Positions 1 through 30,221 of a stretch of DNA of 64,000 bases are shown here, piece by piece. Origin of the DNA: Poseidonibacter parvus. GTDB taxonomy: Bacteria > Campylobacterota > Campylobacteria > Campylobacterales > Arcobacteraceae. The stretch is from contig NZ_CP019070.1 in assembly GCF_001956695.1 (NCBI RefSeq), forward strand, positions 1,550,001 through 1,614,000. Direction: 5' to 3'. Numbering within the stretch: the first letter of the stretch is position 1; each line of letters begins with the position of its first letter. A program made the position numbers and the translations under genes. Under the pieces are notes generated by a model. That model saw only the letters and a list, made by a program, of their open reading frames with translations. It did not search any database and was not told where the DNA came from.

Positions 1-1
1 A

Positions 2-568
2 AAATGCAGTAAATGTAAAAGAAAATTTAGCCTGAAAAAAATACAAAGAGAAGAAAGAGTTTTCGACCATTTTAAAAAAGGTGACACAGCAAGACAAACA
101 GCTATTAGTACTAAAATGCACTTTTTAACTATTCAAAATTACTTTGAAAAATTTAGAAAGAATATTGCAATTTATGCAGATGAAATATATCAAAAAAATT
201 CTCATAGAGTAACAAACTATGATGAATATCTTTATTTACCAAGAAGTCTTCAAATTGAAACAAATATAGATAAACTTCAACATTTTCTCACATTTTGTTA
301 TGATGATACGATTTATAATATAATGATGCCTAAGAAAAAACTATCATTGATTAAAGATGATGATGAAAAAGAGCATAAGCTTTTAATGAAATATCTTAAA
401 TTTAATACAATATCAAAGCTTTCAAAATCTCAAAATACTATTACAAGGTTTTGGGATTATTTTGAAGAGTTTATTTGCCGTTACAAAGGTGTGAGTGATG
501 AAAAGTTTATTTTTTATCTTAAAGAAGCTGAATGGAGATTTAACCTTCAAAGAAAAAATATAGAATAA
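2..568 (+). CDS. transposase-like zinc-ribbon protein, N-terminus off the window
   Basis: The open frame runs in from the left edge, so the start is not visible. The first visible residues form the second half of a zinc ribbon (KCSKCKRKFSLKK). A helix-turn-helix-like stretch follows (DTARQTAISTKMHFLTIQNYF). The middle has the short motif YDEYLYLP, where ISXO2/IS1595 transposases carry their first catalytic acid. The end (FWDYFEEF...KEAEWRFNLQ) resembles the FW...RFN tail of ISXO2-type transposases. The DDE core is much shorter than in active IS1595 enzymes, and I see no terminal inverted repeats beside it. It may be a domesticated or decayed transposase. The family link rests on motif resemblance only. 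Confidence 0.55.
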   Translation, partial: KCSKCKRKFSLKKIQREERVFDHFKKGDTARQTAISTKMHFLTIQNYFEKFRKNIAIYADEIYQKNSHRVTNYDEYLYLPRSLQIETNIDKLQHFLTFCYDDTIYNIMMPKKKLSLIKDDDEKEHKLLMKYLKFNTISKLSKSQNTITRFWDYFEEFICRYKGVSDEKFIFYLKEAEWRFNLQRKNIE

Positions 569-11009: not shown

Positions 11010-11523
11010 CTTTTTCCTTTTTGTTTCTTTTTAAATTATATATTTTTTTATAAATTTCTTTGCTTGTAGCGTAAATATAGTGTTTCTCTTTACTTAATGT
11101 AAATTTAGTAGTAAAAGTAGCTATAGGTAATGAACGTAGAGGTAATACAGATTCTTTAACACTTACTTCATAAGATAAATCAATATTTTGATAAACATAA
11201 AAAGATTTATCTTCAAACATATAACTTTCAATATATCTGCTTTTACTATATCCAATACCAATCATAATAATTGAAGCACTACCTATATAACTTAAGAAAA
11301 ATAGAGTGTATCCTGTAGTTTTCCAAAGTGCTTTTTTTGTTTGATTATCATAAATATTACAAATTATTTTATATGCAAAAAATATTGATAATAAATATAA
11401 AAAGATAATACTAATATTAACAATACTTATAAGAATAAATGACGGAATCCATTCTATAATATTTAGTATAAAGCTTAAAACTAAACAAAATGTTACTTGT
11501 ATAAAACTTTTTAAATAACTCAT
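11002..11523 (-). CDS. four-helix membrane protein, unknown
   Basis: A 173-aa protein with four hydrophobic helices (about 5-22, 28-54, 70-90 and a short C-terminal amphipathic part) and a basic C-terminus (NLKRNKKEKDE). It begins one base inside the stop of hypF and ends inside the next gene, so translation is coupled. I do not recognise the family. Confidence 0.5.
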   Translation of the reverse strand: MSYLKSFIQVTFCLVLSFILNIIEWIPSFILISIVNISIIFLYLLSIFFAYKIICNIYDNQTKKALWKTTGYTLFFLSYIGSASIIMIGIGYSKSRYIESYMFEDKSFYVYQNIDLSYEVSVKESVLPLRSLPIATFTTKFTLSKEKHYIYATSKEIYKKIYNLKRNKKEKDE

Positions 11524-13763
11524 TAGTTTTTATATCCTGATGTATTAATTGTAGACATAACTTGGCCTAAAGCAATTCCACCATCATTAGGAGGAATCAT
11601 GTTAGAAATTATAGCCTTTGGAAATCTATCTAAAACTAAACTTAAAAGCACTCTATTTTGGAAAACTCCGCCACTTAAAACTAGAGGTAAATCATAAGGC
11701 TCATATACTTTAACTATTACTTCAACTAAAGTATAAAAAAACTTACTTACAGCAGTTGAAATATCTTTTTCTTTTAACAGTAAAGGAAGAATAGGAAGTA
11801 TATCTATTTTTCCATTTTCATAATTAAAAGGATAGTATCCTGTAACTGAACTATCAAATAATTCTTCTAGTAACATTCCACTTTCACCCTCAAAACTCAT
11901 AACTTGGCAAATACCAAGTAAGGATGCAACTGCATCAAATAATCTTCCTACTGAAGAACTTAATGGTGAATTTAATCCTTTTTCCCATGCTACATAATAA
12001 GCTTTAAGTTCTACAGATGAGAATGCTCTAGTAGTAGGATTATCCAACTCAAAAACATCTTTTCCATAAAGACTAAAAAGTACTGAAAGAGCAACTCGTT
12101 TTGGTTCTTTAATAGCTTTTGTTCCACCTAAAAGCTTAAAGTATTCTAGTGAAGCTATTCTTTTGTAGTCATCAAAATCACATACTAAAAACTCACCACC
12201 CCAAAGCATACCATCATCACCATAACCAGTACCATCAAAGGCAACTCCAAATACTTTTTCTTTTATCTTTTTTTCTGCCATAACAGATAAGATATGTGCA
12301 TAGTGATGTTGAACTTCTTTACCTATAATTTTCTTATTATTGCTTATTATTTTATTTGCTATCTTAGTTGATTCATAATTAGGGTGCTTATCGTAAGCAA
12401 TAATATCTGCTTTAAAATCATATATTCTCTCTAATGTTTCGATATTTTTTTCATAGTATTCAACAGATGAAATACTAGATAAATCTCCAATATGAGGAGA
12501 TAAAATCACTTGATTATTAAAACCAATAGCTATTGTATTTTTCTGATTAGCTCCAAGAGCTAAAACATTACTCTTTAATGCAAAAGGTAATGTAACTCTC
12601 ATAGGAGCATATCCTCTAGCTCTTCTAATAACAATTGTTTGTTCTTTTACTACCATAACTACAGAATCATCACAACCATTAACAATATCTCTATTATGGT
12701 CTAAAATATAATCATATACTCCATGTAATTTTTCTAAAGTTTCTAAGCTTGTACAAATTGGTTCATTACTTATATTAGCAGAAGTGAATACTAAAGGACG
12801 GTTAATATTATCTATCAAAAGTAAATGAAGAGGAGTATAAGGTAATAAAAGACCAATATAAGAAATATTAGGTGAAATAACACTTGAATGTTTTTGTTTC
12901 ATTTTAACAATCACAATAGGTCTTTCTTTTGAAAGTAAAAGATTCTCTTCATCCTTAGAAATAACTGCAAGTTCTCTAGCCATTTCCATATTACGAACCA
13001 TTACAGCAAAAGGTTTTGTTTCTCTTTTTTTTCTATTACGTAATTTTATTATTGTACTTTCATTTGTTGCATCACAAACTAGATGATAACCCCCTACTCC
13101 TTTAAGAGCAAGAATATTACCTTCTTTTAATAATGAAACAGTTTTATCTACTTCATTTGTTTTTATATCTATTCTTTTTGCAACCTTATCTAGTAACTCT
13201 AGTTTTGGTCCACAATCATTACATCCAATAGGTTGAGCATGATAGCGTCTATCAAAAGGGTTATTATATTCTGTTTCACAAGTCTTACACATCTTAAACA
13301 TTTTCATTGATGTTTTGTTTCTATCATAAGGTAAATTATGAATTATAGAGTATCTTACCCCACAATGAGTACAGTTTATAAAAGGATATTGATAACGACG
13401 ATTATTAATATCTAAAAGTTCTTTTTCACATTCTTTACAAACACTTACATCAGAAGGAATATTAACAACAACATCACCTTTACTTTGAGTTTTGATAATT
13501 TCAAAACTATCAAAAGCTTTATAATTAATCTTTTTGTGTTCGATAGTTTCAATAGAAGCTAAAGGTGGATATTCGAACTCAATCGCTGTTAAAAACTGTT
13601 TTAAAGTAATGGTATCACTATTAATAATTATTTCAACACCACCACTATTATTACTAACTGTACCAGTTAGTATGTATCTTTGAGCAAGTGAGTAAACAAA
13701 AGGACGGAACCCTACACCTTGCACAGTACCAGTGATATTTATTTTATAAGTACAAAGCTCCAT
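11523..13763 (-). CDS. hypF: carbamoyltransferase HypF, [NiFe]-hydrogenase maturation
   Basis: A 746-aa enzyme that makes the carbamoyl group later turned into the cyanide ligands of the NiFe site, working with HypE. Domains in order: acylphosphatase (GTVQGVGFRPFVY, residues about 1-85), two C4 zinc fingers (CKECEKE...CTHCG and CKTCETE...CNDCG, about 105-185), YrdC/Sua5 (KGVGGYHLVCDA and KKRETKPFAVM, about 200-380), and a Kae1-like C-terminal domain with the metal motif VQHHYAHILS and FDGTGYGDDGMLWGGE. Everything is intact. ATG 13763 is preferred because AAGGAG lies ten bases before it; ATG 13772 sits one base from that site. It overlaps the end of hydE. Confidence 0.95.
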   Translation of the reverse strand: MELCTYKINITGTVQGVGFRPFVYSLAQRYILTGTVSNNSGGVEIIINSDTITLKQFLTAIEFEYPPLASIETIEHKKINYKAFDSFEIIKTQSKGDVVVNIPSDVSVCKECEKELLDINNRRYQYPFINCTHCGVRYSIIHNLPYDRNKTSMKMFKMCKTCETEYNNPFDRRYHAQPIGCNDCGPKLELLDKVAKRIDIKTNEVDKTVSLLKEGNILALKGVGGYHLVCDATNESTIIKLRNRKKRETKPFAVMVRNMEMARELAVISKDEENLLLSKERPIVIVKMKQKHSSVISPNISYIGLLLPYTPLHLLLIDNINRPLVFTSANISNEPICTSLETLEKLHGVYDYILDHNRDIVNGCDDSVVMVVKEQTIVIRRARGYAPMRVTLPFALKSNVLALGANQKNTIAIGFNNQVILSPHIGDLSSISSVEYYEKNIETLERIYDFKADIIAYDKHPNYESTKIANKIISNNKKIIGKEVQHHYAHILSVMAEKKIKEKVFGVAFDGTGYGDDGMLWGGEFLVCDFDDYKRIASLEYFKLLGGTKAIKEPKRVALSVLFSLYGKDVFELDNPTTRAFSSVELKAYYVAWEKGLNSPLSSSVGRLFDAVASLLGICQVMSFEGESGMLLEELFDSSVTGYYPFNYENGKIDILPILPLLLKEKDISTAVSKFFYTLVEVIVKVYEPYDLPLVLSGGVFQNRVLLSLVLDRFPKAIISNMIPPNDGGIALGQVMSTINTSGYKN

Positions 13764-15762
13764 ATACCGCATTCTCCTTACCTATAGGAAAGTTCTTATT
13801 CATTAGAGGTTTTTTAGCCCCAAGTGTTTTTTGAATACTAGCATAAAGTGATTGATTTGCAAAAGTTTCACCACTAAGAACTACTATATTACTTCCTACT
13901 TTGTCACAAAGTTGAGGAACAAGTTCTCCTATATAATCACCAAAAGATTCATAAATACTATAACAAATATAATTATTCTCTACATCTCCTAATTGATAAG
14001 ACATGATACTTGTTAAAAATGCGTAATTATCAAAACGATTATCTTTGATTTTAGTATCTATTTGTAATCCACCTTTTCCTAAAAAACTAAGAGATTCAGA
14101 GGAAATACCTTCAAAACTCTCATTTTCAAGTCCAAGAGTAATAGCTGTAACTTCAAAAACATCCATATCTCCTTCTAAGTTATCTAAACGATCCCATATT
14201 TTAGGATATGCTTTTTTATAATTATTAACTAATCTATCAGAACCGTCTCTAAGTGTTCTAATCTTTTCCCACAAGTTATCGGATTCAAAAGGTATTGCTG
14301 GTACTGCATTTATAACTTTTTTTCCATTGTAATATAAAAAATTCAAGCTTCCATCAAAATGAACACCAATAGCTTTTTCTCCAACTTTTTCATATTCTGC
14401 AAGTACTGATAGCATCGACGCTTCATATTGTTCAAATTTATTCTGATTATTTTCTTCATTTCCAAAATTCTTTTGAGCATCTAGTACATATAGTTCTGAT
14501 GTATATACAGAATCAAATACACTAAATGAATCTATAATACTTTCTTCTTCTAAAGGAACGCAAGCTAAATCATGTGCTACAGTAACCCTAGCTTTTTCAT
14601 TTTTTGCTATTGTAGGGTAAATAATACGTTCACCTGAAATAAAAAATTTTGCATCTTGATTAATAAAAAGTTTTGTATCTTTTTGTGTATTTATAGGCAT
14701 ATCAAAATCAACTAAGAAATCAGCTTCTTCATCACTACTACATTCTATATAAGCCATATACTCTAAACCATGTTTCACAGCTTCTGCTGCTAAAAGCATT
14801 GTCATACCATCATCTGGATATTTAACCAAAGCAGATGAACCATAAAATTTCTTTATTTCATCACTTTTTGTTGCAACTCTTAAAAGTGGACGTTCAATAC
14901 TAAGTAAAGCATTAAACTCTTGTTCAACAAGCATTAGATGCTTATTAAAACCTGCAGAATTTGCCATAAGTAATGTTGATAAGGCAACGTTATTTTCAAT
15001 ATGTTTTGTTGAAGTATTTTGAGGCTTAGATAGACCTATATCAACTTTATTTGTTGTAAATTTTATTTTATCTATTGAACTAGCATTTGGTTTTGGATAA
15101 AAAAACTTTCTATATCCATGTATTGTTTTCATTAAAACAGTTTTACCTGTGCTAATTGCACCTGCACTTACTTTAAAAAGATTGTGGTAATCTCCTTTAT
15201 TAAGAGCCATATGTTCTGTTTCTTGATTAAGCATTCTTAAGCCTATACCACATTCTATACATGAAATCAGGGGATAGTCTTTACGTAAAAAATTAGTTTC
15301 TCTTTCTTTTTCACACTCTGAACAAGGTACTAAAAATTTCATTGTTGTATTTGCACGAATATAAGGATACTTAGTCAAAAAAGGATGTTGTGAACCGCAG
15401 CTATTACATGAAGTAAAAGGATAATAAAAACGACGAGAGCTTACATCAAACATTTCTTTTTGACAACTAGGACAAGGTGCTATATTTACAGGAAGATTTG
15501 ACTGTTCTACTGCAACTAAAGATGGTTTTTCTTCACTAAAATAGTGATTAGCATTTCCTAAAAATAAAGAAGCAGGTAATAAATCTTCCATATTTAATAA
15601 AAAACTTTCTAATTTTTCGTCATCTTGATTAAAAATCATAACTATCTTATCTTTTGTTTGAACTATTTCTACTTCAATTTCTGTTTTATTCGCATATCCA
15701 CGTATTAGTTTTGATATATAGTTCTTGTTTGAGCTAAATGTTATCTCAAAGATAAAATACAT
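13744..15762 (-). CDS. hydE: HydE, HypF-like protein without the catalytic histidines
   Basis: A 672-aa relative of HypF. Both zinc fingers are kept (C97/C100 with C119/C122, C147/C150 with C168/C171), as are a YrdC-like middle and a Kae1-like C-terminal part (GVHFDGSLNFLYYNG, VVLSGETFANQSL). Where HypF has HHxxH, this protein reads EQYEASMLSVLAEY, so the metal-binding histidines are gone; the DGTGYG loop is also changed and the N-terminal acylphosphatase signature is absent. It is probably not an active carbamoyltransferase. Position after hydD matches hydE of Helicobacter and Wolinella, which is reported as needed for hydrogenase activity in H. pylori. A scaffold or maturation role is inferred. 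Confidence 0.75.
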   Translation of the reverse strand: MYFIFEITFSSNKNYISKLIRGYANKTEIEVEIVQTKDKIVMIFNQDDEKLESFLLNMEDLLPASLFLGNANHYFSEEKPSLVAVEQSNLPVNIAPCPSCQKEMFDVSSRRFYYPFTSCNSCGSQHPFLTKYPYIRANTTMKFLVPCSECEKERETNFLRKDYPLISCIECGIGLRMLNQETEHMALNKGDYHNLFKVSAGAISTGKTVLMKTIHGYRKFFYPKPNASSIDKIKFTTNKVDIGLSKPQNTSTKHIENNVALSTLLMANSAGFNKHLMLVEQEFNALLSIERPLLRVATKSDEIKKFYGSSALVKYPDDGMTMLLAAEAVKHGLEYMAYIECSSDEEADFLVDFDMPINTQKDTKLFINQDAKFFISGERIIYPTIAKNEKARVTVAHDLACVPLEEESIIDSFSVFDSVYTSELYVLDAQKNFGNEENNQNKFEQYEASMLSVLAEYEKVGEKAIGVHFDGSLNFLYYNGKKVINAVPAIPFESDNLWEKIRTLRDGSDRLVNNYKKAYPKIWDRLDNLEGDMDVFEVTAITLGLENESFEGISSESLSFLGKGGLQIDTKIKDNRFDNYAFLTSIMSYQLGDVENNYICYSIYESFGDYIGELVPQLCDKVGSNIVVLSGETFANQSLYASIQKTLGAKKPLMNKNFPIGKENAVYGALYL

Positions 15763-15824: not shown

Positions 15825-16400
15825 CTAAATAAGTTTTGACATATCTGTAAAATCCGCAATTTTAGGATTTGCATAGGCTTCAATTATATTTTCAAAGCTT
15901 ACTTCATCAGATTTTTTTCTTGTAAGTTCAATACCAGATTCTTTTAATTCATAAAGCGTTTCATCAACAAGTGAAGGCATATGCTCTAATGCCTCTGGTG
16001 TCATAGCATTTTTAACATCTATAATATCATGAGGAACCATGGTTATAAGTTGTACTTCACCCATATCTTCATGAAAAGAACATATTTCTATCATCATTGT
16101 TATTTCTACTTCATTTGCAGTTCTTCTTGTAGATGTTGAATTCGCCATTACCTGCTCAGAATTTTCTGAACTTATAGTACCAACAGGACCTATTTTAGAT
16201 CCTGTTCCAACAACAATAACTTTATCATATTCTTGATAATAAGTCATCAAAGTAAACCCTAATGTACCACCCTCTACAATAGTTAGTTTAGGATGTTCTT
16301 CATAGTTTTCTTCGATATACTTTACTAAATATGCACCTAAACCTTCATCATGAAACATAATGTTTCCAATGCCAATAAGTGCTATTCTTTCATGGTTCAA
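15825..16400 (-). CDS. hydD: HydD, hydrogenase maturation endopeptidase homologue (M52)
   Basis: A 191-aa member of the HybD/HycI family that normally removes the C-terminal tail of the large subunit. The N-terminal GIGNIMFHDEGLG holds the first nickel-probe ligand, E19. The Asp expected in the second motif is Gly (IVVGTGSKIGPVGT, G65) and the His expected in the third is Asn (RTANEVEI, N96), by alignment with E. coli HybD from memory. Two of three ligands therefore seem lost, although hydB does carry a tail needing cleavage. It is longer than HybD by about 25 residues at the C-terminus. It starts two bases from the hydC stop. Confidence 0.75.
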   Translation of the reverse strand: MNHERIALIGIGNIMFHDEGLGAYLVKYIEENYEEHPKLTIVEGGTLGFTLMTYYQEYDKVIVVGTGSKIGPVGTISSENSEQVMANSTSTRRTANEVEITMMIEICSFHEDMGEVQLITMVPHDIIDVKNAMTPEALEHMPSLVDETLYELKESGIELTRKKSDEVSFENIIEAYANPKIADFTDMSKLI

Positions 16401-16402
16401 AT

Positions 16403-17146
16403 TTATGATTCCTTTTCAGTTTTCACAAATTTATCACCACCAACAACTATTGAAATATCACCCTCTTTCCAAAAAATTGTTCGCCATACTTGATAATAAA
16501 TATGAAAAACTATCCATGTAATTAAAAGCCACATTGTCAAGTGATGAGAAATACGTACATCCATAATATTCGCACCAGTAGCAGTTGTTCCAATCATCCA
16601 TGAACTAACTACTTGTGTCCAGTCTGTTGTAGCATGTAATATCCAAGGCCACCATGTTCCAACACTACTCTCTCCTGAACCTAATGCATGTACATAAAGC
16701 TGAAGACCTGTTAAAAGCATCCACCCTAAAAGTAAATGAAAAATTAAAAAATAAACAGAATTAAAGCTATCACTATGTGTTGAATCAAATTTCTTTCGTC
16801 GGTTTAGTGTTATTAAGTTTAAAAATACTTCAGCAAACTCTTTAATATTCTTTCCTGTAGGAATAACCTTTTTCCATGGCTTTTCAAAACGTGAAAAGAA
16901 GAAAAGATAAGCAATAATAACAGAAGTAACATCAAAAATAATAGCCACTATAAAGTGACCCCATCTATTCCAAGCCATTACATATTTGTCCACTGCATCA
17001 TCAGCCATAAAAGTTTGATAATACGGTGCAGCAATATAAAGACCTGTAGCAATTGCTACAATCATTGAAATAACATTAACCCAATGAATGATTCTCATTG
17101 CAGGGGTCATACGTCTTATACGAGTATATCCTTCTTTATTCTCCAC
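16403..17146 (-). CDS. hydC: HydC, b-type cytochrome subunit of Ni/Fe hydrogenase
   Basis: A 247-aa membrane cytochrome with four helices. Histidines suited to haem ligation lie in RIIHWVNVIS near the N-terminus, WGHFIVAIIF, FHLLLGWML and HHLTMWLL/FHIYYQVW near the C-terminus, as in HydC/HyaC. It takes electrons from the small subunit and passes them to menaquinone. The gene lies between hydB and hydD with short gaps. Confidence 0.92.
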   Translation of the reverse strand: MENKEGYTRIRRMTPAMRIIHWVNVISMIVAIATGLYIAAPYYQTFMADDAVDKYVMAWNRWGHFIVAIIFDVTSVIIAYLFFFSRFEKPWKKVIPTGKNIKEFAEVFLNLITLNRRKKFDSTHSDSFNSVYFLIFHLLLGWMLLTGLQLYVHALGSGESSVGTWWPWILHATTDWTQVVSSWMIGTTATGANIMDVRISHHLTMWLLITWIVFHIYYQVWRTIFWKEGDISIVVGGDKFVKTEKES

Positions 17147-17156
17147 AATTTACTCC

Positions 17157-18998
17157 TTAAAAGGCACTAGTAGGGTCAACTTTATATACAGCTAACTCCT
17201 TACCATTAGTGTCCATAACATGTACTGCACAAGCAATACAAGGGTCAAAACTATGTACTGTTCGAATGATTTCTAATGGTTCTTCAGGGTTTGCTACTTT
17301 TGTTCCAATTAATGATGCTTCATAAGCCCCAATTTCACCATTTGGTCCTCTTGGTCCTGCATTCCAAGTAGAAGGTACAACTGCTTGAAAGTTAGATACT
17401 AATCCATCTTTAATAACAATCCAGTGACCTAATGCTCCTCTTGGAGCTTCTGCCATTCCTCTACCTTTACAGTCTTTACTTACTTCATCAAAATCAAAAC
17501 TTGTCCAAGTACTAAGATCACCATTAGCAGCATTTTTTGCAAGCTCTGATGCCCATTCTTTCATACCATCTGCTATCATTTCTGTTTCAATTGCACGTGC
17601 GGCTGTTCTTCCAACAGTTGAGAATAATACTGAAATAGGTAAACCTGAACGCTTAAGAAAATCACCAACATATTTAGTAATAACTTTATCGCCTTTTGCA
17701 TATCCTATAACCATACGAGCAAGTGGTCCAACTTCTACTTTACGTCCATCATAAAGTGGAGATTTAATCCAAGAATATTTACCTTCTGTTTTAAGATAAG
17801 CATATCCATCATCTTTTTTATCAAGTCCAGTATATTCAGGAATAGTAGTTCCAACATAAGGATGTTCTGGTTCACCTGTACCTTCAAACCATGCGTGAGT
17901 TACATCTTCAGTAATTTTATCTTCATCAAGTTCATGTACTTTAGAAATGTCTCCATCAAGTATTACACCAGCAGGTAAAAATAATGCAGAATTATAAAAT
18001 CCTGTATCATCAAGTCTAAAGTCACCATAAGACATGAATGATAACAATCCTCCACCAGAACCACCAATAGCTTTTCCTAATGTACCTTTATGCTTAGTAC
18101 CATGAAAAGATTGAGATGAATCCGTTGCTTCTTCTGCATAAGCCGTTCCTGCCATATAGATATCTGGAAGATATGCTCTTTTAACAAAATCAGTAGTTTC
18201 TCTTAATAATTCTTGGAAAAGAGCTATACGAGCAGGGTTTTGAATATCTTGAACACATGTAACTCCACCAACAACAATTGATTGAGGATGTGGAGATTTA
18301 CCACCAAAAAGTGCATGCATTTTAGACATACGTCTTTGTACATCTAACCCTTTAAGATAGTGTGCTACACCAATAAGATTTTGTTCAGGAGTAAGTTTAT
18401 ATCCTTTATTCCCCCAATATCCATTTCCAAAAATACCTAAACGACCCTCTTTTGCAAATTTTACAATTCGGTCTTGAATATCTTTAAAATCAGTAGCTCC
18501 TGCAATATATGGAGTAGTTCCTGCAATTTTTGCCCATTTCTCTGCTTCTTTTGCAGTTTTAACTGGATCAGCTTTTGTAGCTGAAATAATATCTACAAAA
18601 TCAAGAGCATGTAAATGATAAAAATGTACAAAGTGATCATGTACTTGAAGTGAACCTTGAATAAGATTACGTACAATTCGAGCATTTTTAGGAATAGTTA
18701 CATCAAATGCATCTTCAACAGCTTCAATTGATCTTTGATAATGTGTACCAGTACAAACACCACAAATACGCATAGTCATTAATCCAACATCTCTTGGATC
18801 TCTATTTTTTACAATAGTTTCAATTCCTCTAAACATAGTAGAAGAACTCCATGCATCAATAATTGTATTGTCCTTATCAATTACAGCTTCAATTCTAAGA
18901 TGTCCTTCAATTCTAGTAATAGGGTCAACAATAATATGCTTATTCCCATTTGAATCTGTTTGATGGAAGTTACCATCTTTTCCATGTAATTTACTCAT
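17157..18998 (-). CDS. hydB: HydB, [NiFe]-hydrogenase large subunit (group 1)
   Basis: A 613-aa catalytic subunit. PITRIEGHLRIE is at residues 26-37; the first nickel pair is C79 and C82 in RICGVCTGTH; the second is C587 and C590 in DPCIACAVH. Twenty residues follow H593 (VMDTNGKE...), the tail that a maturation protease removes after nickel insertion. It oxidises H2 at the periplasmic side of the inner membrane with HydA and HydC. The sequence resembles group 1b enzymes of Campylobacterota and Aquificota. It overlaps the end of hydA by eight bases. Confidence 0.96.
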   Translation of the reverse strand: MSKLHGKDGNFHQTDSNGNKHIIVDPITRIEGHLRIEAVIDKDNTIIDAWSSSTMFRGIETIVKNRDPRDVGLMTMRICGVCTGTHYQRSIEAVEDAFDVTIPKNARIVRNLIQGSLQVHDHFVHFYHLHALDFVDIISATKADPVKTAKEAEKWAKIAGTTPYIAGATDFKDIQDRIVKFAKEGRLGIFGNGYWGNKGYKLTPEQNLIGVAHYLKGLDVQRRMSKMHALFGGKSPHPQSIVVGGVTCVQDIQNPARIALFQELLRETTDFVKRAYLPDIYMAGTAYAEEATDSSQSFHGTKHKGTLGKAIGGSGGGLLSFMSYGDFRLDDTGFYNSALFLPAGVILDGDISKVHELDEDKITEDVTHAWFEGTGEPEHPYVGTTIPEYTGLDKKDDGYAYLKTEGKYSWIKSPLYDGRKVEVGPLARMVIGYAKGDKVITKYVGDFLKRSGLPISVLFSTVGRTAARAIETEMIADGMKEWASELAKNAANGDLSTWTSFDFDEVSKDCKGRGMAEAPRGALGHWIVIKDGLVSNFQAVVPSTWNAGPRGPNGEIGAYEASLIGTKVANPEEPLEIIRTVHSFDPCIACAVHVMDTNGKELAVYKVDPTSAF

Positions 18999-20235
18999 TT
19001 AATTCTCCTGCCTTTTCCTTTTTACCCGCAACAGCACTTGCTGCTGCATGTATTGCAATTCCAACACCAGCAGCTGTTAACAATCCAAGACCAAACTCAT
19101 CTACTGTTTTTTCAACTCCACCTGTTGGAGCTTTGATATTAGCATTTGCCATTGGTCGTTCATATGCGTACTTATCCCAAAAATCTGGTTCTGAACATCC
19201 TATACAACCACGCCCTACACCAATAGGCCAATTTACACCTTCATTGTAACGAATAATAGAACAGTTATTAAAAGTCATAGGACCTTTACATCCTACTTTA
19301 TAAAGACAGAAGTTGTTTTTAGCCCCTTCATCTCCCCATTCTTCTACATATTCTCCAGCATCAAAATGTGCACGTCGTTCACAGTTATCATGGATTCTGT
19401 ATCCAAATGCAAACTTAGGACGTAAAAGAGAATCAAGTTCAGGAATTGAACCCGTAAGTACATAATGCAATATAACACCAACCATATTAGATGGATTTGC
19501 AGGACAGGCAGGAATATTAATAAGTGGTTTACCTTTAACAACATCCATTACTCCAACTGCATCAGTTGGATTTGGAGCAGCTGCTGGTATACCACCATAA
19601 GTTGCACATGAACCAACAGCTACTATTGCTGCGGCACCTTCAGATGCTCTATGTAAATGATCTACAAATGTTTCACCTATAGCACCAATTGTTCCATAGT
19701 TTCCATTTAAACCTAAAGGAACAGCTCCTTCAACAAAAAGTAAATACTTTCCTTTGAAATGTTCCATTGCATCATTCATTTGTTTTTCAGCTTGATGTCC
19801 AGAAGCTGCTTGAAGTGCTTCATGAAATTCTAATGAAATAATATCTAAAATAATTTCATCAATTTTCGGTCCATCTGAACGTAAAAGTGCTTCAGAATTA
19901 CCTGCACAATCTTGTAATTCAAGCCAAATAACAGGAACTCTATTCATAAGTACTGCCGCTTCAGCTACTAATGGTGTAAAAGATGCAGGAAGCATCAACA
20001 TAGCTGTAGTTGCAGATGCCCATTTTAAAAAGTCTCTTCGTTCAAGACCTTGTTCTTCTATACTTTCTGTAAAGTCCATTCTGTTATTTAGAGGTGCAAG
20101 TTTTTTTAAATCTTCGATCCTCTGTTGACAAGATTCATATAGTTTTTCATAATATGTATCACCTTTATTAGTATCAACTTTAGCACTTTCTGCTGTAAAA
20201 AGTTTTTTTACAGATTCATCATTTGCTATATTCAT
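18991..20235 (-). CDS. hydA: HydA, [NiFe]-hydrogenase small subunit with Tat signal
   Basis: A 414-aa iron-sulfur subunit. A long leader precedes the Tat motif ERRDFLKWA (R66-R67), so it is exported folded with HydB. Cluster ligands are visible in GSCATYGG, PACPANP, HDNCERR, CLYKVGCKG and GCIGCSEPDF. The proximal CxxC motif reads DCAGNSE: C110 is present but the second cysteine is N113. A C-terminal helix (LGLLTAAGVGIAIHAAAS) anchors it to the membrane. GGGGAG precedes the ATG. Two palindromes upstream look like repressor sites. The first 60 residues before the twin arginines are unusually long. Confidence 0.95.
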   Translation of the reverse strand: MNIANDESVKKLFTAESAKVDTNKGDTYYEKLYESCQQRIEDLKKLAPLNNRMDFTESIEEQGLERRDFLKWASATTAMLMLPASFTPLVAEAAVLMNRVPVIWLELQDCAGNSEALLRSDGPKIDEIILDIISLEFHEALQAASGHQAEKQMNDAMEHFKGKYLLFVEGAVPLGLNGNYGTIGAIGETFVDHLHRASEGAAAIVAVGSCATYGGIPAAAPNPTDAVGVMDVVKGKPLINIPACPANPSNMVGVILHYVLTGSIPELDSLLRPKFAFGYRIHDNCERRAHFDAGEYVEEWGDEGAKNNFCLYKVGCKGPMTFNNCSIIRYNEGVNWPIGVGRGCIGCSEPDFWDKYAYERPMANANIKAPTGGVEKTVDEFGLGLLTAAGVGIAIHAAASAVAGKKEKAGELNE

Positions 20236-20257: not shown

Positions 20258-20290
20258 TTGAATATCCATTCAACTGAATAAGTATTCAGT
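20258..20290 (-). promoter_or_regulatory. paired palindromic operators in the hydA promoter
   Basis: TTGAATATCCATTCAA (20258-20273) and ACTGAATAAGTATTCAGT (20273-20290) are adjacent perfect palindromes with the common form YTGAATnnnnATTCAR. They sit between a minus-strand -10-like TATAAAATACTATACT (about 20287-20305) and the ribosome site, where a repressor would block transcription. The TetR gene upstream in the same locus is the obvious candidate; its own promoter has two more CTGAAT half-sites. Confidence 0.7.
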
Positions 20291-20352
20291 ATAGTATTTT
20301 ATAATAACTTAAAGGTAGTTTAATGATAATCAGTTTTAATATCTATGTAAAA

Positions 20353-21651
20353 CTAGTGTGTAGTACAAACAGAACATACATCAAATGTACGAAAAATAAA
20401 AAGTGCTTCTGCTTTAGTGTGTCCAAACATAGTTTTTTGAACAGGAGTTAATTTATCTTTAGTAGAACTTCCAATATTCCATTGAGTAGGAGTAATAATT
20501 TCATATTTATTTATAATTCCATTTTCTATATCAACTTTGTGAATTAAAGGTCCACGAGGTGCTTCAACTATACCTATACCACTAGCAGTTACTTTTTCTA
20601 TAGAGATAGGTTTATTACATGAATTTTCAGAAATAGAAATAGTACTTAATAGCTCATTAGCATGTTTCATTAAATGTGCTAGTTCATATATACGTGCAAT
20701 TACACGAGAATAAGCACTATCTTTATATCGTCTATGAATATTTTTGATTAAAGGTATTTGTAGAGACATCATTCGTGATAAAGAACCAACTTCATAGTAA
20801 TCATCTTTATACATAGCATTTCTTGCATAAGTTTTTTCATTTGGAGAATAAGATTCAACAGTACTAACATGCTTTATATCAACACTAAAAGGCCGTGTTT
20901 GTTTCATTTTAATAGGATTAATAAAAAGGTGATCCCCTAACATTATAAATCTATCATAAGCCAATCCTTTTTCTTGCATGCCTAATTCTATTAAATGTTC
21001 CTCTATTTTAGAAACATCTGCTTCCCCTACTGAAATCTCTTTAGGTGTTTTATATGTTAAAAACTCATCTAGATTAACTCCTAAACTTTCTTTTTCAAAA
21101 AATTGTATAAGATCTTTAAGTATACTTTGTGCTTGCAAAATTTCTATATAAGTTGGATCGCTAGTGACTCCACCAGGAACCATATATGAAGAATGAGGCC
21201 ATTGTCCTCCAAGAAGCGATATAGCCTTCGTAGCTAATCTAGCTCCATATGCACCTTTTAGGGTATAATTCTCTTCATTAGAGTTTCTTAATTTTGAGAG
21301 TTCTGGTATTAGTACCATATACACCCACTTTAAATGGTTTTGTATTATTTCCATTACTAAAGTAAATTCTCGTATTTTTTTTGCTTTTTTACTTAAATGT
21401 ACTTCATATCCCGCATTTTTATATGCATCTTCTATAGCCCTTACACTAGACATCAAATGAGCATGACCACATATTCCACATACACGAGGAGTAATTACCA
21501 AAGCATCAAGAGCATTTTTTCCTTTTAAAATATTTTCGATTCCTCGAAAATGAGGAAAAGCAATAGTAGAAAAATTAACTTTTTCATTTTTCATATCAAA
21601 ATAAACAGATGCTTCACCTTCTATTTGATCAATCAGTTGTTTCGTAATCAA
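20353..21651 (-). CDS. hupL: [NiFe]-hydrogenase large subunit, uncleaved (group 2-like)
   Basis: A large subunit of about 432 aa, much shorter than HydB. The nickel ligands lie in RVCGICGHAH and in the last residues, DVCSVCTTH. The protein stops right at that histidine, so there is no tail to remove and no HydD-type protease is needed, as in H2-sensing HupV/HoxC proteins. The start is a TTG at 21651 with AAGGA seven bases before it; an in-frame TTG at 21666 has no such site. It overlaps the small-subunit gene. No membrane anchor or Tat signal is present in the pair, so it is probably cytosolic. Sensor or low-rate uptake enzyme are both possible. Confidence 0.85.
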   Translation of the reverse strand: MITKQLIDQIEGEASVYFDMKNEKVNFSTIAFPHFRGIENILKGKNALDALVITPRVCGICGHAHLMSSVRAIEDAYKNAGYEVHLSKKAKKIREFTLVMEIIQNHLKWVYMVLIPELSKLRNSNEENYTLKGAYGARLATKAISLLGGQWPHSSYMVPGGVTSDPTYIEILQAQSILKDLIQFFEKESLGVNLDEFLTYKTPKEISVGEADVSKIEEHLIELGMQEKGLAYDRFIMLGDHLFINPIKMKQTRPFSVDIKHVSTVESYSPNEKTYARNAMYKDDYYEVGSLSRMMSLQIPLIKNIHRRYKDSAYSRVIARIYELAHLMKHANELLSTISISENSCNKPISIEKVTASGIGIVEAPRGPLIHKVDIENGIINKYEIITPTQWNIGSSTKDKLTPVQKTMFGHTKAEALFIFRTFDVCSVCTTH

Positions 21652-22534
21652 TGAGTTTTCCTTCAAGTCTTTTAATACTAAATGTTTTTGCCATTCCTGT
21701 CATAGTCAAATAAGTCCTTTTGGGAACACCAAGAGGCACATCTTGTGGTATAGACATATTTGTTTTTGTGCTATAAAGATTTGATCTTGGAAAATCTGGT
21801 TCAGTACAACCAAAACACGGTGTTCCAACACGTGTTTTAGAGCTAACCTCATTCCAAAGAATCTTATTACAAGAAGCGTGTGTCATTGGACCACGACACC
21901 CTTGTTCATAAAACATACAACCTTCTTTTTTCCCAAAACCTTTTGTATCAATCTTCCATTCAAAGTATTCATTTCTTGTACATCCATGATGAGCAAGATT
22001 ACTATACAATTCCAAAGGTCTATAAAGATTATCAAGTGGTACTTCTCTTTTATTTATAATCATATTTAAAGTATAACTAAGCCATTCAGGATGAATCGGA
22101 CACCCTGAAAGATTAATCACCTTAGCCTTAGAATCAAGAAGTGGTCCGAATTCTTCTTTTTCGTTAAAGATAAGTCCACTATTTCGCTCAGGAGCAGAAG
22201 CTTTAAATATTCCACCAAAGCTTGCACAACTTCCTAATGCAATAACATACTTTGCATTAAGAGAGTAATGTTTCAAAATATTTTTAACTAATACATCATT
22301 TCTTTTTAAAAGAGGATCATATGCTCCTTCAAAAATTAATACATCACATGAAGTTTCTAATAAAGTAATTTCCTCAAGAGTATGTAATGATGTCAAAGAA
22401 GGGTGATATACCATATCTAAATTATCAAGTAAAGATGGTAGTGATGGTAAGTTTAAAAAAGAATGTATATTTGCATTACAAGTAACCCCTTGTATCCAAA
22501 TAATACGAAGCTTAGTTTCTGGATTTAAGTGCAT
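21629..22534 (-). CDS. hupS: [NiFe]-hydrogenase small subunit, soluble (group 2-like)
   Basis: A 301-aa small subunit without a Tat signal or C-terminal anchor. Cluster residues are in GVTCNANIHSF (C19; Asn22 where the second Cys is usual), GSCASFGG, LSGCPIHP, HHGCTRNEYF, CMFYEQGCRG and GTPCFGCTEPDF. Lack of export signals and an uncleaved partner fit the HupUV/HoxBC sensing class or the related group 2 uptake enzymes of Campylobacterota. Its start lies inside the 3' end of the tetR gene (23-bp overlap), which ties its expression directly to the regulator. Confidence 0.85.
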   Translation of the reverse strand: MHLNPETKLRIIWIQGVTCNANIHSFLNLPSLPSLLDNLDMVYHPSLTSLHTLEEITLLETSCDVLIFEGAYDPLLKRNDVLVKNILKHYSLNAKYVIALGSCASFGGIFKASAPERNSGLIFNEKEEFGPLLDSKAKVINLSGCPIHPEWLSYTLNMIINKREVPLDNLYRPLELYSNLAHHGCTRNEYFEWKIDTKGFGKKEGCMFYEQGCRGPMTHASCNKILWNEVSSKTRVGTPCFGCTEPDFPRSNLYSTKTNMSIPQDVPLGVPKRTYLTMTGMAKTFSIKRLEGKLIDYETTD

Positions 22535-23108
22535 TGAAAATGTTTTCAGAAATATCTTTTTTATACTCGTCTAAAGACCCAGGTAAAATTTCTTCCCCAT
22601 GTAAAAAAACCATACCACCTAAATAACCCATAAAAAGTCCAAAAGCACTGAAGAAATCTTGATTATGTAACTCACCACACTCTACTCCTTCATCAAAAAA
22701 GATCATCATTTCCGTAACAAAAGATGAAACACAAATCATACCCTTACATTCTTTCCCAAAAATTTCACGGTTTGATAAATAAACTCGTAAAAAATATTCT
22801 ATCATTTCAGGCTTTTCTTCTGCCATAGTAAAATACATCGAAACAATTTTTGAAATCTTTTCTTCAGTACTTATTTTTTCTTCATTTATCTCTCTAATGC
22901 GTTTACCTAGGTATTCTGAAATAAATATAACCAGCTCTTTTGCTAATAAATCCTTAGAAGTAAAATAATTATAAAAACTACCAACACTCATCCCAACATA
23001 TTTTGCAATATCAGGGATAGTTGTCATATAAAAACCTTTCTGCGAAAATAATTTCAATGCAGATAAGACTATAATACTTTTTCTTTCTTCTTTTGTTACT
23101 CTTGCCAT
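22512..23108 (-). CDS. TetR-family regulator of the hydrogenase locus
   Basis: A 198-aa TetR-type protein with an N-terminal helix-turn-helix (ALKLFSQKGFYMTTIPDIAK...SVGSFYNYFTSKDLL, residues 17-54) and a C-terminal ligand domain that holds cysteines at about 120, 125 and 143. It is the first gene of a run with hupS and hupL, and the hydA operon follows. Likely targets are the YTGAATnnnnATTCAR palindromes at 20258-20290 and the CTGAAT pair in its own promoter. Classic hydrogenase sensors signal through a HoxJ/HoxA pair; a TetR partner is a different layout. Ligand unknown. Confidence 0.85.
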   Translation of the reverse strand: MARVTKEERKSIIVLSALKLFSQKGFYMTTIPDIAKYVGMSVGSFYNYFTSKDLLAKELVIFISEYLGKRIREINEEKISTEEKISKIVSMYFTMAEEKPEMIEYFLRVYLSNREIFGKECKGMICVSSFVTEMMIFFDEGVECGELHNQDFFSAFGLFMGYLGGMVFLHGEEILPGSLDEYKKDISENIFNALKSRN

Positions 23109-23159
23109 ATAAACTCGTTTCTTAATTATTTTTTATCATAGTATATAATATAAAAGTTT

Positions 23160-23173
23160 CTGAATGACTGAAT
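23160..23173 (-). promoter_or_regulatory. CTGAAT half-site pair in the tetR promoter
   Basis: CTGAATGACTGAAT carries the half-site of the hydA operators twice in direct orientation, about 52 bp before the tetR start. It suggests autoregulation; as a direct rather than inverted pair it may be a weaker site. Confidence 0.4.
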
Positions 23174-26846: not shown

Positions 26847-27949
26847 CTATTATCATGTATTAGTTTAAAAAGTCATTCTAAGACCAGTAAAGTAGTAAGT
26901 CCCTACATTTGTGCCAATTTCTTCATCAACTTCTTTATTAAAAATATTATCAATACCAATGTAATACTCTATATTTTTATTGATTTGATATTGCGCACCT
27001 AAATCAACCAATGTATAGGCATTTGCTTCTTCAGTATTTGTTGAGTTTGTGAATTGCTTACCTATATATCTAAGCATTAAATTTGTATTAAATGCATCAG
27101 TGATTTTATAATTTGTATTAAATGAAACAGAAATATCAGGTGTATAAGTTAACTCTTTTCCTGTACTTTCATCTTCTGTTTTCAAATATGTTGCATTTAT
27201 TCCAAAATCGATATTTTTATTTAAGCTATAATCAAAAGAAACTTCAGCCCCTTTAATATCAACTTTATCAATGTTTTCTGATGTATAATATTTTGTAGAA
27301 GAGTTAGAGTCATTATATGAGACTAAATCAATTTTATCTTTTACTTTATTATTAAAGATTGTGAATGTAGATGAAAGGTTTTTATATTTATTTGATAATG
27401 ATAGTTCAAACGTTTGAGACTGTTCAGGTTTTAAGTCATAAGCTTCTGTTTTAATAGTATTAATAACTTCAGCACCATATCTTTTTGCTCCCTTATAATA
27501 CATAGAATTAACATAAAGTTCAGCAATATCAGGTGTTCTGTATCCTTGTGCATAATTTGCTCTAATACTAGTATTATCCGTTAAATTTTTAACAAGTCCT
27601 GCTTGAAGGGTGATTTTATTATCAGCATTTGAAATATTGTCATATCTAGCACCAATAATTGCATTTAGCGTATCAGAAAACTCTATTTCATCTTGAATAA
27701 ATAAAGATTTATATTTTACAATTTTTGTAACAAATTCACTTGATGATGCAATAGGATTGATTGCTCCCGAGTCTCTAGTTTCTTTTCTATATTCAAGACC
27801 TGTTGTAATAATATTTGAATCATTTAAAATATAAGTTAAACCTGATTCTAAAGTATCAATAGTAACATTTGCACTAAATTTTGTATTTGTAGAACCATCA
27901 AATGTTAATGGATCTGTATAGTTTCTTTTTTTATAATATGATCTATATA

Positions 27950-27975
27950 TGGAGTGGTAACATGAATTCATACTC
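27950..27975 (+). repeat. left terminal inverted repeat of the IS
   Basis: Begins TGGAGTGGTAAC and continues with AATTCATAC. It pairs with the right end at 21 of 26 positions. Confidence 0.85.
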
Positions 27976-28021
27976 GGAATTTAACAATTCTGAGATAAAA
28001 TAAAATGAATAAAGGTTACAA

Positions 28022-28318
28022 ATGAGAAAGAGTAAATACAGTAAAGAGTTCAAAGATTCCACAGTACAATTAATTTTAAATGATGGTGAAAGCGTTGTAA
28101 AAGTAGCAAAAGATTTAGGTTTAAATACAAAGACATTATATCATTGGGTTACTATATATAAAAAAGCTCATAATATACCAATACGAGATATAAATTCTTC
28201 TTCTAAAGAAAGTGATAATGAAGAACTAAAACGACTGAGACGTGAGAATAAAATACTAAAACAAGAAAGAGACATTTTAAAAAAGGCAGCAGCATACTTC
28301 GCAAAAGAAACTCTATAA
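28022..28318 (+). CDS. IS3-family OrfA, DNA-binding part of the transposase
   Basis: A 98-aa protein with the usual helix-turn-helix (KYSKEFKDSTVQLILN, VVKVAKDLGLNTKTLYHWV) and a leucine-zipper-like tail (ELKRLRRENKILKQERDILK). Near its end the slippery heptamer A AAA AAG (28279-28285) is in the correct frame for a -1 shift, which would yield the OrfAB transposase. AAAGG precedes the ATG. Confidence 0.93.
   Translation: MRKSKYSKEFKDSTVQLILNDGESVVKVAKDLGLNTKTLYHWVTIYKKAHNIPIRDINSSSKESDNEELKRLRRENKILKQERDILKKAAAYFAKETL
28279..28285 (+). promoter_or_regulatory. programmed -1 frameshift heptamer in the IS
   Basis: A AAA AAG in the orfA frame (codons TTA AAA AAG). Slipping back one base enters the orfB frame, which has no stop between there and the orfB start. 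It is the standard heptamer of IS3-family elements. Confidence 0.85.
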
Positions 28319-28365
28319 GGTATGCTTGGATATTTGAGAATAAAAAGAGTTTTAGCATTAAGCTT

Positions 28366-29196
28366 ATGTGTAAAGTTGTTAAAGTAGATTTATCTTCTTA
28401 TTACCATTGGATAAAAACAGGGTCTGTTGTAAAAAAAGTAGATAAAAAACTTAATGAATTAATTGAGATTATTTTTCTTCAAGGTAGGAATAACTACGGT
28501 ACTCGTAGGATTAGAGATAAACTAAAAGAATTATATGGATTAATTATTTCAAGAAGACGTATTTCAAATATCATGAAAGATTTAAATCTAAAAGTTAAAA
28601 TGAAAAGAAGATATAAAAATACAACTGATTCTAATCATAATCTGCCAATTGCACCTAATATCTTAAATAGAGACTTTTATGCTTCAAGTCCAGATCAAAA
28701 ATATGTAGGGGATATTACTTACATTCCAACAGGTGAAGGCTGGTTATATTTAGCAACGGTAATTGACCTATACTCAAGAAAAGTAGTTGGCTGGAGCATG
28801 GATGATACGATGAAAGTATCATTGGTAAATGATGCATTAAGTATGGCAATACTTCATAGGAATCCACCTTCTGGACTCATTTGGCACACAGATAGAGGCT
28901 CACAATATGCTTCTTATAGCCATAAAGATTTATTATTAAAAAACAATATTACACAAAGTATGAGTCGAAAAGGCAATTGCTGGGACAATTCTGTTGCTGA
29001 GAGTTTTTTTAAATCATTGAAACAAGAATTAGTTTATAACACATATTTTTATACAAAGAAACAAGCTAAAAAAGAGATATTTGAATATATTGAATTTTAT
29101 TATAATAGAGTTAGAAGTCATAGTTATGTAGGAAATTTATCTCCTGTTAAATTTGAAGAAAAACAAAATGCGTTACAAAGTGAAATGGTGGCTTAG
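28366..29196 (+). CDS. IS3-family OrfB, DDE integrase part of the transposase
   Basis: The retroviral-type integrase core is intact: first Asp in YVGDITYIPT, second in HTDRGSQYAS, Glu in CWDNSVAESFFKSLK. The frame is open further back, through YAWIFENKKSFSIKLMCKVV, to the slip site at 28279-28285, so the working product is the OrfAB fusion made by a -1 frameshift; the first ATG lies at 28366. Length and motifs fit IS3/IS150-type elements. Confidence 0.93.
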   Translation: MCKVVKVDLSSYYHWIKTGSVVKKVDKKLNELIEIIFLQGRNNYGTRRIRDKLKELYGLIISRRRISNIMKDLNLKVKMKRRYKNTTDSNHNLPIAPNILNRDFYASSPDQKYVGDITYIPTGEGWLYLATVIDLYSRKVVGWSMDDTMKVSLVNDALSMAILHRNPPSGLIWHTDRGSQYASYSHKDLLLKNNITQSMSRKGNCWDNSVAESFFKSLKQELVYNTYFYTKKQAKKEIFEYIEFYYNRVRSHSYVGNLSPVKFEEKQNALQSEMVA

Positions 29197-29210
29197 GGAT
29201 AAGCAAAAAA

Positions 29211-29236
29211 GTGTATGAATTTTAGTTACCTCTCCA
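29211..29236 (-). repeat. right terminal inverted repeat of the IS
   Basis: Read on the minus strand it begins TGGAGAGGTAAC and continues with AATTCATAC, mirroring the left end. Confidence 0.85.
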
Positions 29237-30221
29237 ATAGTTTTGTATTCATTGATAAATCATCATTTATAATATAGTTAAAATCACTTGAAATATCAAT
29301 TCTTCTATTTTTATCTTCAGAATTTACAGGAGTATTTGTAATTAAGCCTCCAAGAGATGACGCAGCATTTCCTAAGTATTGTCCTTCTCTATTTTCTGTA
29401 AAATAGTTTAAATCAAACCCTGCTGTAAAATTATCTGAAAAATCATATTCTAATCTTGTTCCAATAGTTCTAACAGTAGCTTCATCTTTATACGTTACAT
29501 CATAATCTCCAGATGCATTATCTAAAGGATATGAGTTTAAATCTGCTCCCGAACTTGGATTAATAGCTTGCTGTGTATATGATTTGTTTTCTGTGTAAGG
29601 AGTTGTATCATCAATAGATGCATGGATTTTATATTTAAATTTACCTACACGTCCTCTATTTGTTAGGTTTGCATTTTTATTTATAGCCTCCCCCTCACTA
29701 TTTGAACCATATTTTAAATCTAATGTTGTAACATTTTTATCTATTTTCTTTGTAATAATATTAATTACACCTCCAATAGCATCAGAACCATATAAAGTAG
29801 ACATTGAACCTTTAACTATCTCAATTCGTTCAATCATTGAAGATGTTATTCTAGTCATTTCGTATGGACTTTCAGTTTCTCCTGATAATCTTTTACCATC
29901 AATTAAAATCAGTGTACCATTTGATCCCATACCTCTTAATGAAATAGAAGCTTTTGATGAAGAACTAGGGTGTGGGAACCTTCCATATTGTGCATTTATA
30001 GATGGTATTTTTTGTAAAATTTTATCTAATGTAGAAGCACCAGTTTTTTCTATATCTTTTTCTGTAATAACAACAACAGATGCAGTTACTCCATCGATAG
30101 ATTTTTCAGTTTTAGTCGCAGTCGTAATTGTAATTTTATCTAAAGTACTTGCTTGTATAGTAGTGCTAGATACTAGTCCTATAAGTGCAGTTGATAGTAT
30201 TTTATTATGCATTATTTATCC

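Follow-up and report, generated by a model that had tools for sequence, protein, structure and literature searches.

A TetR-family regulator co-encoded with a group 2d [NiFe]-hydrogenase as the predicted switch of the hydrogenase regulon in Poseidonibacter parvus

Introduction

The described systems closest to the one reported here are the H2-sensing regulatory hydrogenases (RHs) HoxBC and HupUV of group 2b, which act with the histidine kinase HoxJ/HupT and the NtrC-type regulator HoxA/HupR. Group 2d, which holds Aquifex Hase III, Hydrogenobacter Hup2 and A. butzleri HuaSL, has been called sensory by phylogeny (PMC2628731) and has been proposed as an electron source for carbon fixation (PMC5401914). 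Elsewhere its role is called unresolved and possibly regulatory, and the Aquifex enzyme is described as hard to detect and unlikely to reduce ferredoxin (PMC10052474). We analyzed a 64,000-nucleotide stretch of the Poseidonibacter parvus genome (NZ_CP019070.1, positions 1,550,001 to 1,614,000; hereafter the window), in which the genes tetR, hupS and hupL are followed by the operon of the membrane-bound uptake hydrogenase HydAB. On the comparative evidence, the best explanation of the whole is that tetR-hupS-hupL would both sense H2 and switch the hydrogenase regulon, a reading that we hold with reasonable rather than high confidence.

Results

Two TGAAT-N4-ATTCA repeats with one base in common lie at the start of hydA. 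The first predicted operator (20258-20273, TTGAAT-ATCC-ATTCAA) is a conserved element upstream of hydA. The second (20273-20290, ACTGAATA-AG-TATTCAGT, with an N2 centre) adjoins the likely −10 region, for which the sequence and a weak AT-rich conservation upstream of the site suggest the putative element TACTAT (20291-20296, minus strand). An earlier note on this DNA had described two perfect palindromes over the hydA promoter. The repeats are indeed present and their arms are perfect, but their centres are not palindromic.

The element was scored in relatives as TGAAY-N0-RTTCA or TGAAY-N4-RTTCA upstream of hydA. It precedes hydA at 79 of the 94 loci with tetR-hupSL and at 1 of the 32 without (Fisher p = 5e-17, a value that overstates independence, since operator and tetR have a common ancestry). 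Among loci of the same hydA type, the counts are 69/77 with tetR and 0/20 without. The sole tetR-less locus with the element, L274, belongs to the same genus as one of two genomes that have lost hupSL, and its element looks like a relict. Half-site spacings besides 0 and 4 are at background level. The spacer type of the operator matches the TetR clade without exception (38/38 and 32/32); this is an association and not proof, because clade and promoter are inherited together. The sites mostly stand 25-55 bp ahead of the hydA ATG, next to the probable −10, which is a repressor-like position, and in P. parvus the operators would cover the hydA transcription start site.

The genome of P. parvus is one contig of 2.87 Mb. 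A pattern search for TGAAT-N4-ATTCA across it returned only eight sites, of which five are inside reading frames and three are at promoters (the hydA pair and a single site at a nickel permease-hypB operon); every promoter-placed site is thus hydrogenase-related. With so few sites in the genome, and two of them adjacent at hydA, the pair is beyond chance. Shuffles, the tetR-less loci and this count together rule out a chance palindrome. The remaining promoter site is located approximately 140 bp left of the window, ahead of a nickel-permease-like gene (nicO) that is followed by hypB. The NicO match is slightly under the Pfam cut-off, and the gene is assumed to start at the ATG after the site. 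Seven other genomes have the same site before the permease-hypB operon, and two of the seven also have it before hypA.

Divergent from the nickel permease-hypB operon, several genomes encode a small zinc-ribbon-like/helix-turn-helix-like protein (L372:1596-2216, L393, L395, L408, L410), for which a Pfam search gave no match. The P. parvus copy, L372, is at the left edge of the window (1-568).

The comparative evidence makes it very probable that TetR, and not a HoxJ/HoxA pair, regulates hydA, as the earlier note had proposed, with targets that include the nickel-permease/hyp operon. We are highly confident that TetR acts on the hydrogenase regulon through these palindromes as a predicted repressor. 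A TetR dimer would very likely repress the hydA operon, and likewise the nickel permease-hypB (or hypA) operons, by sitting on the TGAAT-type palindromes over their start sites. Control of its own promoter is another matter. Two CTGAAT half-sites are present upstream of tetR, as had been noted (23160-23173; 23160-23165 and 23168-23173). They are a direct repeat, however, of doubtful function, and relatives do not preserve them as a palindrome. Of 60 tetR promoters of the family Arcobacteraceae, 20 have the core TGAA-N2-TTCA and 9 have TGAA-N6-TTCA; in other families the count is only a handful of 40. Most tetR promoters have no conserved palindrome, and autoregulation through these half-sites was rejected as a conserved feature.

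All genes of the locus are on the minus strand. The gene tetR (22512-23108) encodes a TetR-family regulator of 198 amino acids (PF00440, E 5e-14). It is followed by hupS (21629-22534; PF14720 and PF01058), for the small subunit of a cytoplasmic [NiFe]-hydrogenase of the group 2d clade, and hupL (20353-21666; PF00374), for a large subunit of the same clade that has no C-terminal extension. The three genes had been said to overlap in one run, and they do, by 23 bp between tetR and hupS and by 38 bp between hupS and hupL. The latter figure holds if the TTG at 21666 is used; the hupL start codon is uncertain and may be just inside. A gap of 117 bp separates the end of hupL from the start of hydA.

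HupL relatives were found in 65/104 family genomes (partial copies counted), and TetR orthologues in 67/104 family genomes and 139/299 genomes of the order Campylobacterales. In the order-wide samples the HupS and TetR orthologues nearly always co-occur; the few exceptions mostly resemble contig ends. The same gene order with conserved palindromes, for which the earlier note had suggested a search, does recur in relatives: beside the 79/94 operator count, tetR, hupS and hupL adjoin one another in this order at 40/40 loci taken from other Campylobacterales families, with a median tetR-hupS spacing of −11 bp and with hydAB next after hupL in most of them. Some members of the Hydrogenothermaceae (Aquificota) have the same order.

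Several variants of the locus were seen. Loci L042, L055, L072, L081, L082 and L038 have an extra 0.4-1.9 kb separating hupS from hupL. In Sulfurimonas paralvinellae (L284:3528-10456), a 50-kb plasmid carries tetR-hupSL-hydAB, next to a gene for a site-specific integrase. Within the genus Poseidonibacter, including Poseidonibacter lekithochrous, orthologues are found at 87%. In the HupL tree the P. parvus cluster nests with Sulfurimonas, and other Poseidonibacter have a cluster of the Arcobacteraceae type, in which the operator has the other spacing; this suggests that the whole tetR-hupSL and hydAB cluster was transferred. In Runella (Bacteroidota; L287:148-3563), a TetR gene is likewise ahead of the two genes of a group 2a hydrogenase, one with both tail and protease.

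The P. parvus genome encodes only two [NiFe] large subunits, HupL and HydB. In the large-subunit tree, HupL and Aquificota group 2d form one clade (support 100/100), to which neither HoxC/HupV nor group 2a belongs. Its nickel ligands C63, C66, C431 and C434 are invariant in the relatives compared (set A1). HupL was correctly said to end at the last nickel-ligand histidine motif, with the stop directly after FDVCSVCTTH. Approximately 100 HupL relatives are likewise tail-less, with H, Q or K as the terminal residue; HydB, unlike HupL, has a tail of approximately 15 residues after the motif. HoxC and HupV have no tail either and stop at ...CMVCTVH, and to this extent HupSL is consistent with an H2-sensing type of hydrogenase. 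However, HupL belongs to the group 2d clade and two RH sequence marks are missing. Tree, partner gene and residues rule out membership of HupSL in HoxBC/HupUV (group 2b).

The bulky Ile/Phe gas-channel pair of RHs (I62 and F110 in HoxC) does not serve as a sensing mark here. The Ile is shared, and at HoxC position 110 P. parvus HupL has V, a position that is variable across the 2d clade. A group 2a uptake hydrogenase of the Huc type was also considered. Huc is the best PDB match for both subunits (HupS to the Huc small subunit 7uur, E 3e-55), but HupSL has neither the cleavable tail nor a maturation protease of its own.

HupSL might instead be a catalytic 2d hydrogenase that gives low-potential electrons to the reductive tricarboxylic acid (TCA) cycle, with TetR tuning it together with the other hydrogenase genes. 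This follows the published hypothesis for group 2d (PMC5401914, PMC2628731), and the active-site cysteines of HupSL are intact. A strong ATP-citrate lyase match is present in only 8/65 family genomes with HupL, however, and the other 57, P. parvus included, have none; this scarcity argues against a carbon-fixation role in Arcobacteraceae. Among the locus genes inspected, the tetR-hupSL operon has no ferredoxin or NAD module, and the view of the Aquifex enzyme as an unlikely ferredoxin reducer (PMC10052474) also speaks against this role. We regard it as improbable.

Published expression data bear on sensing. In A. butzleri under H2, both hynAB sets rise 2.3-6.2-fold and the group 2d huaSL genes fall (PMC12286921), a pattern that fits an H2-responsive hydA under a repressor. 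The Aliarcobacter relatives L325 and L330 have tetR beside hupSL, and the same genomes (L047, L054) have a site before hydA. From the missing tail, the constant pairing with TetR, the absence of a tie to the reductive TCA cycle and the A. butzleri pattern we infer that HupSL is rather likely the H2 sensor of the circuit.

TetR itself has a possible receiving site. Foldseek matches the TetR model to TetR structures, with an all-helical TetR fold. A cysteine pair, Cys121-X4-Cys126 (codons 22746-22748 and 22731-22733), is located at the helix 6/helix 7 junction in the AlphaFold2 model, which has a mean predicted local distance difference test score of 87; residues 111-120, just before the pair, average 59. 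The Cys-X4-Cys motif is present in 154/154 hydrogenase-linked TetRs (aligned columns 121 and 126 are Cys in 99%). Unlinked TetR paralogues with near-identical DNA-binding helices have Cys at these columns in about 2/14. On the model, a disulfide or metal site at the pair would be a reasonable switch, and a redox switch is possible. The unlinked paralogues (L246-L257) adjoin other genes; for example, the neighbour in L249 is a different [NiFe]-type cluster, and in L248 and L252 it is a peroxiredoxin-like gene.

A conserved cysteine pair together with nickel-related predicted targets (permease, hyp and hydrogenase) could also describe a nickel or other metal sensor, in which Cys121 and Cys126 bind the metal. 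No invariant His accompanies the pair in the 154 linked TetRs aligned, though, and a nickel sensor would not need the constant linkage to HupSL. An importer and a consumer held under one repressor in the same direction are moreover unlike metal homeostasis, and we give this reading very little credence.

The predicted TetR target hydA (18991-20235) encodes the small subunit of the membrane-bound uptake hydrogenase, with a twin-arginine translocation signal (TIGR00391, E 3e-136; PF10518). It is followed by hydB (17157-18998), for the large subunit with the cleavable tail (PF00374, E 3e-204), and hydC (16403-17146), for the cytochrome b subunit (TIGR02125 match under the cut-off). The maturation protease gene hydD (15825-16400) is an open reading frame named from its sequence and the gene order. 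The hydE-like gene (13744-15762) is HypF-related by sequence, and a 'hypothetical protein' of S. paralvinellae has the same position before hypF. The last gene, hypF (11523-13772), is an open reading frame for a carbamoyltransferase whose S. paralvinellae counterpart is annotated HypF. Elsewhere in the window (26865-30212), a TonB-dependent receptor gene on the minus strand is broken into two halves (29226-30212 and 26865-27971) by a pair of IS3-like transposase genes on the opposite, plus strand (28022-28318, 28366-29196).

Discussion

In the circuit that we propose, co-translated HupSL would be present in the cytoplasm at low abundance, react with H2 and, by passing this information to TetR, lift repression. 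The most economical route, although speculative, would be electron or thiol transfer to Cys121-X4-Cys126, direct or by a carrier; a histidine kinase would not be needed. Electron transfer to the cysteine pair as the signal is a tentative suggestion, which we think less likely than the sensing role itself. The same caution applies to the fuller picture of an electron-wired one-component switch, in which H2 oxidation by HupSL passes to the TetR pair and releases DNA with no kinase, response regulator or ligand.

Several observations weigh against this account. Beside the shared ancestry of operator and tetR, 15/94 tetR-linked loci, L228-L231 among them, have no recognisable site, and the Aquificaceae have group 2d hupSL with no tetR nearby. 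The A. butzleri response is not specific (1191/2260 genes changed; PMC12286921). In Sulfurospirillum multivorans, hydB was expressed in almost every condition tested, whether or not H2 had been added, and hupL was close to silent; the authors of that study call the role of HupSL unclear (PMC5357620). Sulfurospirillum makes H2 from pyruvate (PMC6242987), and this may explain the constant hydB expression. Finally, two genomes have lost hupSL and kept tetR and the operator. One has a short hupL-like end (DVCSLHTQ as read) after tetR, and the other has an opposite-strand oxidoreductase-like gene in place of hupSL. HupSL is therefore not essential for TetR retention, and TetR may bind DNA without it.

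These two genomes favour an alternative in which the signal for TetR repression of hyd and hyp is a small molecule, or the general redox or oxygen state, perceived through the pocket or cysteines of TetR itself. HupSL would then be a cytoplasmic uptake hydrogenase apart from this control, with only the operon in common. The nearest folds include the ligand-binding TetRs FadR and RutR, and in S. multivorans TetR was suggested to be a plain hupSL repressor (PMC5357620). A palindrome is nevertheless often absent from the tetR-hupSL promoter itself. The near-exclusive pairing of tetR with hupSL across many families, into Hydrogenothermaceae, is also at odds with a separate enzyme, as are a HupL without a maturation tail, like known sensors, and the drop of the A. 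butzleri 2d genes under H2 (PMC12286921). We judge this alternative unlikely, although it deserves serious attention, and prefer HupSL as the sensor that acts on TetR.

If true, H2 sensing by HupSL and TetR would provide a testable role for group 2d hydrogenases, which were found in about half of the sampled Campylobacterales genomes and also in Aquificota. The bacteria concerned are dominant at vents, in sulfidic sediments and in some host niches, settings whose ecology is shaped by H2 use. Should the cysteine route also hold, this would be a rare case in which an enzyme informs a transcription factor directly of its redox turnover, and it could be used as a kinase-free H2 biosensor.

In the open-licence literature we found no paper that joins TetR, group 2d and hydA operators. 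In the sole related remark, on S. multivorans, a TetR-like gene precedes hupSL, the same gene pair in the same order, and only hupSL repression was proposed, with no operator, hydA/hyp target or link to sensing (PMC5357620). Among regulators, the TetR-family FadR of Bacillus is one of the closest functional fold neighbours (template modelling score about 0.8), but it has an acyl-CoA ligand, no hydrogenase link and about 20% identity to TetR. The operator of Bacillus FadR is of the TGAATGA type, similar to the palindromes at hydA. Among hydrogenases, Huc of Mycobacterium (group 2a) has CxxN in the small subunit, as does HupS, but the group 2a relatives examined have a tail, approximately 20 residues long, and a gene for a maturation protease next to them. 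Aquifex Hase III, Hydrogenobacter Hup2 and A. butzleri HuaSL are in the same clade as HupL and have the same tail-less C-terminus; the tetR partner, which Aquificaceae members do not have nearby, and the hydA/hyp operator set are added here. With HoxBC and HupUV, HupSL has in common that it is a cytoplasmic group 2 [NiFe]-hydrogenase with a tail-less large subunit, an adjoining regulator and hydrogenase genes as presumed targets. It differs in the CxxN of HupS (CGGC in HoxB), in the V of HupL (F at HoxC 110) and in its separate 2d clade. The circuit would thus work like an H2-sensing regulatory hydrogenase, yet outside the HoxBC/HupUV family, and its output would be a TetR DNA-binding protein, unlike the kinase and NtrC-type regulator of the HoxJ/HoxA type.

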